Shown: positions 2,920-7,399 of the stretch, piece after piece | Numbering within the stretch: position 1 is the stretch's first letter | Layout of the letters: each line of letters begins with the position of its first letter | Source: Candidatus Altarchaeum sp. | Lineage (GTDB): Archaea; Altiarchaeota; Altiarchaeia; Altiarchaeales; Altiarchaeaceae | NCBI GenBank assembly: GCA_018260755.1 | Contig: JAGTWP010000064.1 | Span: 1-7,399 of the forward strand | Reading direction: 5' to 3' | Length of the DNA: 7,399 nucleotides | The notes under the pieces: generated by a model | Seen by the model: only the letters and a program-made list of their open reading frames with translations | What the model was told of the DNA's origin: nothing | Databases searched by the model: none | Made by a program: the position numbers and the translations under genes

Positions 2920-4080
2920 TTAAATTTTCCTAAATATTAGTATTCTTTCACCTTCGCTTTTATTTTCCTTTGTTGCGTATCTGTAAAATTTATCCTCTAA
3001 TACCATATTATAATTTTTTGCTCTCTCAATTAATTCATTGGCAAATTTAAACCTTACATTTTTTATTTTTCTGTCTTTATCTATAATCATACCACATACT
3101 CCGTTGCTTTTTAGAACTCTTGAAATTTCCGAAATTGCATTTTCCATGTCCTTAAAATAAATTTCTATCGCCATTAACTTTTTACTTGCATCGCTGCTTC
3201 CGGTTCCGTCTATTTCCTTATCAACTCCTATATAATTTTTTTCATCAACTTTCTCATTGAGCAAGGTCATTTCTATCTGGTGGATTTTTATATAGTTTAA
3301 CGCATTTAAATATGGAGGAGATGTAACAACCAAATCAATTGTATGAGTGTCAAGGGAAATTTTCTTTGCATTTTCGGGCTCGTTCCGAAAATCTCCGAAC
3401 GAAGTGAGGTAATCGCAATTAAGCACTTCTGCAAACACATCCGTATTAAGAGATGTAAGTTTTTTTAAATTTACACAAACGGTTTTCTTAAAAATTTCAA
3501 ACACATTTATTGTATCTTTTTTCTCTCTTACTCTTCTTACCTTAGATGCATCAATATTTGCACAGGACTTTACAATAGAAAGCAGGCAGACAAGTAAAAA
3601 ATTTCTTATATCCCCCGTATAATTTTCATAAATTTCTTTTCGTATCTTTAAGAGCTGCATTAAATTTTCCCTGTTAAAAAGATAACCGTATTCAAATTTT
3701 TTGCATTCCTCTGTAATTTCATCAAAATTGTCAAAATCCGGATTTATATTTGTAATTCTTATTAACTCATCATTGCTCATACTTATTTTTTTTGTTTTTA
3801 CCTTTGTAACTAATCGTGCAATCGGATTTATATCTATTCCGTAAGAGTTACGATGCAGTAAATTTGCCTCAACTAATGTTGTTCCACTGCCGCAAAAAGG
3901 GTCTAAAACAACATCGTACTTTTTTGAAAATTTCTCAATTAAAAATCTCGGAATTTGGGGGACAAATTGTCCAGGATATCTGTATAAATGATGGGTCGCA
4001 TAATTTGTTTCTTCTTCTCCGATTCTCCTGAAAATTGTTTTTTCAGACATGTTAAATTTTGACTTTGGTTTCTGTGGCAT
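2920..4080 (-). CDS. Site-specific DNA methyltransferase, amino-group (N6-adenine or N4-cytosine) type, motif order I then IV
   Basis: The product (386 residues) has the S-adenosylmethionine motif I DPFCGSGTT at 60-68, followed by GIDINP at 81-86 (motif II, acidic residue binding the ribose). The catalytic motif IV is TSPPY at 253-257. The segment RYPGQFVPQIPRFLIEKF (34-51) before motif I resembles motif X. TSPPY indicates methylation of an exocyclic amino group on DNA; DPFCGTGG/DPPY-type tRNA methyltransferases differ. The order X-I-II-IV differs from the common beta class (IV before I) and matches a permuted or alpha-like layout. ATG at 4080 lies 3 nt after the pop5 stop, so it is probably translated from the same transcript. 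A second ATG (residue 11, 4050) is possible, and neither has a clear ribosome binding site. No restriction enzyme gene is adjacent, so it looks like an orphan methylase. Residues about 225-238 are encoded by a palindromic repeat. Confidence 0.85.
   Translation of the reverse strand: MPQKPKSKFNMSEKTIFRRIGEEETNYATHHLYRYPGQFVPQIPRFLIEKFSKKYDVVLDPFCGSGTTLVEANLLHRNSYGIDINPIARLVTKVKTKKISMSNDELIRITNINPDFDNFDEITEECKKFEYGYLFNRENLMQLLKIRKEIYENYTGDIRNFLLVCLLSIVKSCANIDASKVRRVREKKDTINVFEIFKKTVCVNLKKLTSLNTDVFAEVLNCDYLTSFGDFRNEPENAKKISLDTHTIDLVVTSPPYLNALNYIKIHQIEMTLLNEKVDEKNYIGVDKEIDGTGSSDASKKLMAIEIYFKDMENAISEISRVLKSNGVCGMIIDKDRKIKNVRFKFANELIERAKNYNMVLEDKFYRYATKENKSEGERILIFRKI
3370..3408 (-). repeat. Palindromic repeat element inside the methyltransferase coding sequence (copy 1)
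   Basis: On the minus strand this 39-nt segment reads CTCACTTCGTTCG (3408-3396), three bases, then ATTTTCGG (3392-3385), a 7-nt loop and CCGAAAAT (3377-3370), a perfect 8-bp stem. The same order, a 13-nt identical head, three bases, then a hairpin with ATTTTC and GAAAAT outer arms, occurs in the intergenic region at 7294-7331 on the plus strand. The segment is exactly 13 codons long and keeps the reading frame. It lies between the cofactor domain and the TSPPY motif. Confidence 0.55.
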
Positions 4081-4083
4081 TTT

Positions 4084-4632
4084 TTAAATTTTATCGCCTG
4101 TCTTGTTTTTATCGCCTGTCTTGTTTTTATCGCCTGTTTTGTTTTTATCGCCTGTCTTGTTTTTATCATCCGTTTTGTTTTTATCATCCGTTTTGTTTTT
4201 ATCATCCGTTTTGTTTTTATCATCCGTTTTGTTTTTATCATTTGTTTTGTTTTTATCATTTGTTTTGTTCCATATCGCCTTTTCAACTGATTTTAAAGAC
4301 ATGATAATTTCTTTTGCCTTCTTTATACTTCCAGTTGTGTTTAGCGGAATAACTGAAATTTTTGTTTCGCTTATTGTGGAAAGCAAAGATAATGCAACAA
4401 CAACATCGTCTTTGGTTTTGTGAGTTGTCTTTAAAATTCCAAGTCCGAAATTTTCATTCCAGTCAATAAGATAAACATTTGCGTCGCTCATTCCTTTATC
4501 ACCCAAAAACGAATGAATTGTATATAAACAACCCCTTAAAATTTCTTCCTTTGAAAATTGCCGGTCTTTTTCTGAAACAACTTTGAAAATTACATATCTT
4601 TTTCTTTCCCTTATTCCTGGCGGTAATTTCAT
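4084..4632 (-). CDS. rnp2: Ribonuclease P protein component 2 (Pop5 family) with repetitive C-terminal tail
   Basis: Pop5 is a protein subunit of archaeal RNase P, which trims the 5' leaders of tRNA precursors. I start at ATG 4632 because a longer reading from 4701 would translate through the tRNA-Val gene. That gives 182 residues. Residues 1-115 match Pop5: LPPGIRERKRYVIFKV (3-18), a helix with KEEILRGCLYTIHSFLG (28-44), LGILKTTHKTKDDVVVALSLL (64-84) and the closing VIPLNTTGSIKKAKEI (94-109). Typical Pop5 proteins are about 110-130 residues. Here residues 122-181 add ten hexapeptides NKT(N/D/G)DK, lysine-rich and probably disordered. The start lies 10 nt after the tRNA-Val gene with no Shine-Dalgarno sequence, so the mRNA is probably made with the tRNA. 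The methyltransferase follows after 3 nt. In many archaea pop5 sits in the exosome/proteasome cluster, which is not seen here. Confidence 0.87.
   Translation of the reverse strand: MKLPPGIRERKRYVIFKVVSEKDRQFSKEEILRGCLYTIHSFLGDKGMSDANVYLIDWNENFGLGILKTTHKTKDDVVVALSLLSTISETKISVIPLNTTGSIKKAKEIIMSLKSVEKAIWNKTNDKNKTNDKNKTDDKNKTDDKNKTDDKNKTDDKNKTGDKNKTGDKNKTGDKNKTGDKI
4093..4269 (-). repeat. Ten tandem 18-bp repeats encoding the Pop5 tail
   Basis: Nine complete 18-bp units and one of 15 bp lie head to tail without gaps. On the plus strand units 4093-4164 read ATCGCCTGTCTTGTTTTT (one with TTTT instead of CTTG at the centre), units 4165-4236 read ATCATCCGTTTTGTTTTT, and units 4237-4269 read ATCATTTGTTTTGTT(TTT). 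In translation order the variable residue is N, N, D, D, D, D, G, G, G, G, encoded AAT, GAT, GGC. Because the unit is a multiple of three, copy-number change keeps the frame. These are contiguous tandem repeats with no spacers. Confidence 0.95.
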
Positions 4633-5584: not shown

Positions 5585-6553
5585 TCATTCTTTGTTTTTC
5601 ATTTCATTCGCATAAATATGTGCCATTCTTATTGGTTCTGGCACATTGTATTTTAAAAATTTCTTAACTATTTCCACTGCTGTTTCTAATGAAATTTTAT
5701 GTCCGGGAGATACATAAATTTTTTTTATTTTCTTGCCGACCAGCCTGCTGTTAATAAATACATTGTCGTCCTTTATTTCTCCGCACAATAAACTCTTTGC
5801 TATGCCAATTGTTGCTATGTCAAGTGAAACACCAATATGGCTTGCAATTCCAATTCCTCCCGGGTGCAAAATTCCGTTCCCATCTACCATCAGTAAAATT
5901 TGGGATTTTTCTATTCCTGCATTTATTGCATCATTTATCACTTTTTCAATTATAGGAAATTCCCTGAACGAAAGATATGTCGGGATGTAAGGAAAATTTA
6001 CAGGTATTTTAACGGAAAATTTTTTAAATTTATCAATGTTTCTATCTTTAACTATCAATGCACCAAATCCGTATTCCTCATCGCTTATATTTTTATAGGC
6101 AACATCGGAACCACAAATTATAGCATTAGAATAATCATTTACATTCTCTACAACAACCCGCCTGCTTAAATCATCCTGAATTTTTTTCATTTCTTTTAAA
6201 GGATAATTGCTGTGAAAATTTCTAAATACATAGTCCAAAAAATTTTTAAGTCCTGCGTCTTCTTTTTTACTTTCATTTTCTATTACAAATCCCTCTTTTT
6301 CTAACAAAGTAATCTTCTTTTCAACTCCGAGTTTATATCCTCCTATTCTTCCGTCGGAATGGAGCACTCTGTGACAAGGAATTTTTATCGGAGTCGGATT
6401 ACGATTTAGTGCTGTTCCTACTGCTCTTGCAGAAATTTCATCCCCCAATGCGAGCGCCAATTCCTTATAGGTTGAAATTTTTCCTTCCGGAATCTGGCTT
6501 GTCAATTTTAGCACATACTTATAAAAATCAAACAGTGCTTCCATCTCACTCAT
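5585..6553 (-). CDS. Bifunctional O6-alkylguanine-DNA alkyltransferase / endonuclease V
   Basis: The start is ATG 6553 (322 residues); extending to 6565 would need a TTG start and adds only four residues. The N-terminal part (about 7-95) is the DNA-binding and active-site domain of an alkyltransferase: IPEGKISTYKELA (21-33), the helix SARAVGTALNRNP (41-53) with its flipping arginine, and the acceptor cysteine in PCHRV (C60). The usual preceding N-terminal domain is missing. The C-terminal part (about 108-318) is endonuclease V, which nicks DNA next to deoxyinosine. The metal and catalytic residues are visible: D150 (GSDVAY), E198 (FREFP), D224 (VDGNG), the HPGGIGIASHIG block and H285 (SPGHKISLE). 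A fusion of this kind was characterised in Ferroplasma acidarmanus as active for both reactions. All key residues are intact here, so both activities are expected. It is divergent to tRNA-Lys across a 62-bp AT-rich gap. Confidence 0.93.
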   Translation of the reverse strand: MSEMEALFDFYKYVLKLTSQIPEGKISTYKELALALGDEISARAVGTALNRNPTPIKIPCHRVLHSDGRIGGYKLGVEKKITLLEKEGFVIENESKKEDAGLKNFLDYVFRNFHSNYPLKEMKKIQDDLSRRVVVENVNDYSNAIICGSDVAYKNISDEEYGFGALIVKDRNIDKFKKFSVKIPVNFPYIPTYLSFREFPIIEKVINDAINAGIEKSQILLMVDGNGILHPGGIGIASHIGVSLDIATIGIAKSLLCGEIKDDNVFINSRLVGKKIKKIYVSPGHKISLETAVEIVKKFLKYNVPEPIRMAHIYANEMKNKE

Positions 6554-6570
6554 ATTTTTAAACAAAAAAT

Positions 6571-7169: not shown

Positions 7170-7224
7170 ATTCATTAATAAATTTTATTTGTAACTATTC
7201 AGCCACCCCAAAAATCACAGGTAA

Positions 7225-7395
7225 TTTAAAAATTTTTAGATTTTTAAAGATTGAAAATCTTGTGGATTTTCAGTAATTTTTTGAAATTTTACGCTCACTT
7301 CGTTCGTGTATTTTCAAACAAGTTTGAAAATCGTAGGTATTAAAAAATATTTGAAATATTTTTTAAGATTGAAAATTTATTTATAAATTTTCAGT
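7225..7395. repeat. Cluster of five hairpins downstream of the last gene, including palindromic repeat copy 2
   Basis: The gene-free end of the window (7170-7399) is packed with inverted repeats. They are: 7225-7233 with 7240-7248 (9 bp); 7250-7259 with 7265-7274 (10 bp, one G-T); 7310-7319 with 7322-7331 (10 bp, 2-nt spacer); 7340-7352 with 7354-7366 (13 bp, 1-nt spacer); 7368-7379 with 7384-7395 (12 bp, one G-T). The second and fifth share their outer arms, AGATTGAAAAT and ATTTTCAGTAA. The third is preceded by CTCACTTCGTTCG (7294-7306) and forms copy 2 of the element inside the methyltransferase. Some may act as terminators for the preceding gene, and the whole may be a repeat cluster or structured RNA. 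Confidence 0.65.
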
Positions 7396-7399
7396 AAAT

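Follow-up and report, generated by a model that had tools for sequence, protein, structure and literature searches.

The gene for a DNA methyltransferase in a 7,399-nt stretch of DNA from Candidatus Altarchaeum sp. (GenBank assembly GCA_018260755.1, contig JAGTWP010000064.1; hereafter the window) contains a short palindromic sequence, a relative of which lies between genes in the same stretch, raising the question of whether a repeated DNA element has come to be read as protein. A sequence-only reading of the window had drawn attention to these two copies, and indeed they share the 13-base head CTCACTTCGTTCG exactly, at 3396-3408 on the minus strand and 7294-7306 on the plus strand, each head being followed by a hairpin (palindromes ATTTTCGG..CCGAAAAT in the gene and ATTTTCAAAC..GTTTGAAAAT between genes). 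The two had been taken for copies of one repeat; they do belong to one family but represent two variants, type A in the gene and type B in the intergenic copy, which lies in a MITE. The coding copy is in frame, as had been claimed, but its size was underestimated: it comprises 42 nt or 14 codons (3411-3370, minus strand) and not 39 nt or 13 codons. The features that concern us are as follows.

2920-4080, minus strand: host gene, an N6/N4 DNA methyltransferase of 386 aa (Pfam PF01555, E 2.3e-23)
3370-3411, minus strand: inserted palindromic unit, type A, TACCTCACTTCGTTCGGAGATTTTCGGAACGAGCCCGAAAAT, 42 nt = 14 codons, missing from the methyltransferase orthologues of G001, G002 and G003
3393-3411, minus strand: first hairpin (H1) of the methyltransferase copy, NACCTC-(ac ttc gt)-TCGGAN' (N = T, N' = G)
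3396-3408, minus strand: 13-base head of the methyltransferase copy, part of H1
3370-3392, minus strand: second hairpin (H2) of the methyltransferase copy, palindrome ATTTTCGG-aacgagc-CCGAAAAT, 8-pair arms
7191-7399, plus strand: left part of an IS66-like MITE, TIR GTAACTATTCAG at 7191-7202, right end beyond the window
7291-7331, plus strand: second unit copy, type B variant, 41 nt, ACGCTCACTTCGTTCGTGTATTTTCAAACAAGTTTGAAAAT, with a head common to many intergenic copies
7294-7306, plus strand: 13-base head of the intergenic copy, then the palindrome ATTTTCAAAC..GTTTGAAAAT

Elsewhere in the window, an ORF ending at 4084 (minus strand) contains an 18-bp tandem repeat (4084-4268) that gives C-terminal repeats of the NKTDDK/NKTGDK type, and 5585-6565 (minus strand) reads as one ORF in which a methylguanine-DNA methyltransferase is fused to an endonuclease V-like domain, an assignment made by reading the sequence.

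One 13-mer shared within 7.4 kb is weak evidence alone, as we estimate that about 0.4 such pairs are expected from the length. The repeat of the head becomes decisive because of its genome-wide count: the search for further copies, set beforehand as a test, found 65 exact copies of CTCACTTCGTTCG in the window's own genome (G000; 1.32 Mb, 78 contigs, 85% complete) and 0 of the reversed control. Three other Ca. Altarchaeum genomes contain 78, 101 and 130 copies, and each of 57 more distant archaeal genomes contains 0-5. With a longer type A pattern, allowing up to 3 mismatches, we counted 46, 143, 86 and 179 copies in the four genus genomes (65-87% complete) and 0 in controls; copies were read from the stretches around pattern matches, and ORF calls were mechanical. 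The genus thus carries dozens to more than 100 copies per genome of an approximately 42-base element with two hairpins. An exact search of GTDB contigs for the 22-base ACCTCACTTCGTTCGGANATTT returned at least 107 stretches; among the matches listed, nearly all are from Altarchaeum or Altiarchaeales A3 and one is from another Altiarchaeales single cell. The family is amplified in all four Ca. Altarchaeum genomes and almost absent elsewhere. The exact element pattern found no match in viral contigs, and the 13-base head is not named in the Altarchaeum literature searched, where its sole full-text match was an unrelated insect paper. We note that one exact 22-base match among those listed falls in a gammaproteobacterial MAG (L263), and that the complete genome of an archaeon of an unrelated family (G044) has five reverse-strand copies of the head; these matches may reflect transfer, contamination or chance.

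Comparison of the copies defines a unit with the layout T^[N-ACCTC-loop-TCGGA-N'][A-palindrome-T], in which H1, with a conserved CCTC...TCGG and covarying pairs, is followed in tandem by H2, a palindrome under almost no sequence constraint. The N-N' pair is Watson-Crick in 230 of 253 distinct contexts (A-T 87, C-G 131, G-C 8, T-A 4) and, of 46 distinct loops, 35 and 38 allow Watson-Crick pairing at the two inner H1 positions (p <= 0.0002, 5,000 shuffles), counts that treat related copies as separate and whose independence is inflated by kinship within subfamilies. The pairing of H1 rests on this covariation, since energy folding does not predict H1 alone as a stable hairpin. A hairpin was scored at H2 in 163 of 204 units compared with 73 of 612 control positions. 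The consensus runs from TNACCTC to a final AAAT, most units being 36-49 nt long, and the base 5' of the unit is T in 224 of 227 cases (AT in 132). Units retain this AAAT end irrespective of whether position -2 of the target is T, G or A. Insertion after TT or GT does not alter the end, so that any target duplication is limited to a single base pair at most, and duplication of a 2-bp AT target was rejected because the AT is present at the end of these units too.

The residues added to the methyltransferase fall within positions 223-237, YLTSFGDFRNEPEN. The 42-nt unit is missing from three congeneric orthologues that are 91, 89 and 69% identical, the gap in the DNA alignment being exactly 42 nt, and deleting TACCTCACTTCGTTCGGAGATTTTCGGAACGAGCCCGAAAAT from GAT^...^GCAAAG reproduces the empty-site arrangement of G001, GATGCAAAA. 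A homologue alignment, which the sequence-only reading had proposed as a check, has a gap at this position in all 13 aligned homologues, 10 of them distant (identity of 34% or less), so that the inserted codons are missing from every one. In an AlphaFold model built on the homologue alignment (mean pLDDT 76, pTM 0.81), residues 223-238 have pLDDT below 50 and are predicted to be without secondary structure. Alignment and model place the insert between strands 217-220 and 248-253, directly ahead of the TSPPY motif, and in the model it forms a low-confidence loop. Judging from these alignments, the methyltransferase copy is a recent insertion.

Using orthologues recovered by two fused-protein searches over the four genus genomes, we found exact unit-sized gaps of 36, 42, 45 or 48 nt relative to empty orthologues in seven further genes. 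The evidence for insertion is presence or absence between species, and protein names that have no Pfam result behind them were read from the sequences alone.

AMP phosphorylase (G000): 42-nt insert, gap relative to empty orthologue
CODH/ferredoxin-like protein (G000): 42-nt insert and a 36-nt type B copy, gaps relative to empty orthologue
Glycogen phosphorylase-like protein (G002): 42-nt insert, gap relative to empty orthologue
Transglutaminase-like protein (G001): 42-nt insert, gap relative to empty orthologue
RamA-like protein (G001): 42-nt insert, gap relative to the G000 orthologue
Glycogen debranching enzyme (G001): 45-nt insert, gap relative to empty orthologue, and further copies including two in tandem
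Aconitase-like protein (G003): 48-nt insert, gap relative to empty orthologue

A 48-nt unit also lies in a length-variable region of a mannose-1-phosphate guanylyltransferase-like protein of G000. In that genome 13 of 37 distinct type A copies are within ORFs of at least 164 codons, several of them mid-gene in enzymes. All three forward frames of the unit are represented (LTSFGDFQ.., TSLRSEIS.. and ..RRF..), as is one reverse frame (SERSEV, SEQSEV). The 709-codon ORF of the G001 glycogen debranching enzyme (L199/L348) has at least three insertion sites, one with a tandem pair, in differing frames. Units with N = G that follow AT read ATGACCTCACTTCGTTCGGAC (L033, L039, L028 and L139), and in L033 and L039 an ORF (isocitrate dehydrogenase-like and membrane protein) begins at the ATG of ATGACCTCACTTCGTTCGGAC; start codons may thus come from the element.

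The lengths of the units differ between genes and intergenic DNA. Unit length is a multiple of three in 22 of 29 copies within ORFs of at least 150 codons versus 39 of 148 intergenic copies (Fisher p = 7.4e-7); ORF units are mostly 42, 48 or 45 nt long, and the commonest intergenic lengths are 46 and 47 nt. Those exceptions in ORFs that were read individually lie at ORF ends except for L057, which was scored as 47 and is really a mis-measured 42-nt insert. The interior gene inserts examined have an open reading frame throughout. Because of this bias towards multiples of three and these open frames, we argue that copies in genes are translated and that insertions which broke the frame have been lost.

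The same data bear on the rival accounts of the gene copies. Translational bypass is known from yeast mitochondrial byps elements, and short hairpin-rich inserts in conserved genes could likewise be skipped by the ribosome or excised from the RNA. A skipped insert, however, would be free to contain stops and to have any length, and the interior copies examined are open and multiples of three prevail in ORFs (22/29) relative to intergenic DNA (39/148); we therefore hold this account to be very improbable. That the inserted codons go back to an ancestral protein and have disappeared from relatives, their DNA motif being shared by coincidence, has next to no chance of being correct, and nothing was seen in its favour: the same DNA recurs, in one frame or another, in proteins that have no relation to each other (LTSFGDF, TSLRSE and RRF, and SERSEV in reverse), the segment is missing from every aligned methyltransferase homologue, the reversed control of the head gave 0 copies, and the empty-site data contradict it.

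It is also conceivable, albeit unlikely, that the units are useful regulatory or structural RNA (terminators, or processing or stability hairpins) and that the gene copies are by-products. Many copies do lie between genes and within MITEs, and the covarying, conserved H1 points to some protein or RNA machine that recognises it. Yet the 13 of 37 distinct type A copies of G000 in ORFs of at least 164 codons argue against this possibility, as a terminator mid-enzyme would be harmful, and Rfam matches in the window are to tRNA alone, others being sub-threshold chance matches. This evidence leaves room for later use of the intergenic copies.

The type B copy in the window, a variant with the lower stem TACR..YGTA, is nested inside the IS66-like MITE. 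IS66 elements are marked by GTAA ends and an 8-bp duplication. We identify the MITE as IS66-like because complete relatives of about 244 bp have a matching TIR, CTGAATAGTTAC, because the MITE at L034 is flanked by an 8-bp duplication (agaaattt), and because minimal 101-bp relatives carry no palindromic units. The MITE family is abundant in Altarchaeum, and pieces of the IS66 transposase (PF03050) are found in G001 and G002. In G001, such pieces, interrupted by a stop, are flanked by TIRs of the MITE family (L376, 516-2240), so that this related genome still holds the autonomous partner of the MITE in decayed form. The IS66 transposase was considered as a source of the units and rejected, its place between the MITE TIRs accounting for the MITE and not for the units.

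Taken together, these observations make it very likely that the feature in the window is one copy of a mobile palindromic element that is non-autonomous and specific to the genus, has two tandem hairpins and inserts 3' of T. This reading is supported directly by orthologues that lack the insert, by lengths that keep the frame, by open frames, by amplification in the genus and by structural covariation. Insertions lie directly 3' of T, mostly at AT, on either strand, in intergenic DNA, MITEs and protein genes. Translation of the copies in genes would add disordered loops or extend protein termini, and these additions would probably be tolerated rather than useful, with selection purging insertions that shift the frame. 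Mobilisation may take place in trans through an enzyme for which H1, possibly in the form of a single-stranded hairpin, is the recognition signal. A Y1 transposase (PF01797) was found in none of the four genus genomes (65-87% complete), compared with 5 of 14 control genomes. Nor is there support for an RNA-mediated route, since a single reverse transcriptase (PF00078) was found across the incomplete genus genomes, in G001 only. The absence of target duplication, the fixed 5' base and the structured H1 are traits that we would liken more to IS200/IS605-type single-strand transposition than to DDE transposition. More speculatively, we can envisage, as a possibility we think somewhat doubtful, a new and minimal class of mobile element in archaea. 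Its unit, about 42 nt long and with two hairpins, would be moved as single-stranded DNA by a non-Y1 mobiliser and would insert after T without target duplication, and its 42-nt gene-adapted form, open in several frames, would add peptide loops and could supply start codons (ATGACCTCACTTCG).

The Altarchaeum family presents an unusually clear archaeal case of selfish DNA apparently turned into protein, at about 14 amino acids per insertion, a phenomenon documented mainly in intracellular bacteria and in one old archaeal report. Four related genomes provide matched filled and empty sites in metabolic enzymes together with a clear frame-selection signature, and copies are numerous enough to delimit the unit and to derive its rule of insertion. 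With these filled and empty sites, the signature and the ample copies, it can now be tested by what means elements of this small size are moved, and how frequently new protein segments, start codons and termini arise from mobile DNA.

Several known systems resemble the Altarchaeum units. REP elements are likewise short hairpins, often in arrays and thought to be recognised as single-stranded hairpins, and intragenic REPs are known (PMC3733652). REPs, however, are tagged with GTAG or CGTC at the stem-loop end and associated with RAYT transposases, whereas the Altarchaeum units have the consensus TNACCTC...AAAT with neither tag, no Y1/RAYT was found in the four genus genomes (65-87% complete), and a large share of copies lies in genes. 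MITEs (ERIC, RUP, Correia and IS66-derived) are also small and non-autonomous, and some form coding fusions. They differ in having terminal inverted repeats and a target-site duplication; the ends of the Altarchaeum unit do not match each other, no inverted repeats span the unit, and no target duplication exceeds 1 bp. One IS66-like MITE family of the genus carries the units as nested passengers.

The closest likeness proposed by the sequence-only reading was to the Rickettsia palindromic elements (RPEs), reportedly described by Ogata and colleagues in 2000 and 2002. Like RPEs and the Wolbachia palindromic elements, the Altarchaeum units are confined to one group, occur both between genes and in frame within housekeeping genes, and add a peptide segment. 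The likeness holds for the way the units work, given the seven further exact in-frame insertions, but not for size and architecture: RPEs are single long stem-loops of 105-146 bp (PMC2229807), whereas most Altarchaeum units are 36-49 nt (36-48 nt in genes) with two tandem hairpins, inserted after T in an archaeal host. Among the matches listed for ACCTCACTTCGTTCGGANATTT in GTDB contigs there is no Rickettsia, and these matches give no sign of sequence kinship with an RPE family. Methanocaldococcus jannaschii is said, in a 2005 report, to have about 141 elements, each some 100 bp in length; they are described as old and divergent, fall into three groups and include three that lie within genes. 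These, like the Altarchaeum units, are archaeal palindromes, some of which lie within genes and can be read through without breaking them. An archaeal counterpart of RPEs, which the sequence-only reading had called notable, therefore has a precedent, palindromic elements with coding potential in M. jannaschii being attributed to Suyama et al. 2005 where that report is cited in PMC2229807 and PMC2996958. The Altarchaeum units differ by description in their unrelated lineage, 42-nt length, many gene copies and documented empty sites, and no M. jannaschii contig is among the matches listed for ACCTCACTTCGTTCGGANATTT. The Altarchaeum units are a short, well-documented variant of coding palindromic elements and not a new category; as a family they are, as far as the compared sequences indicate, new, much shorter than the M. 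jannaschii precedent and backed by direct empty-site evidence.
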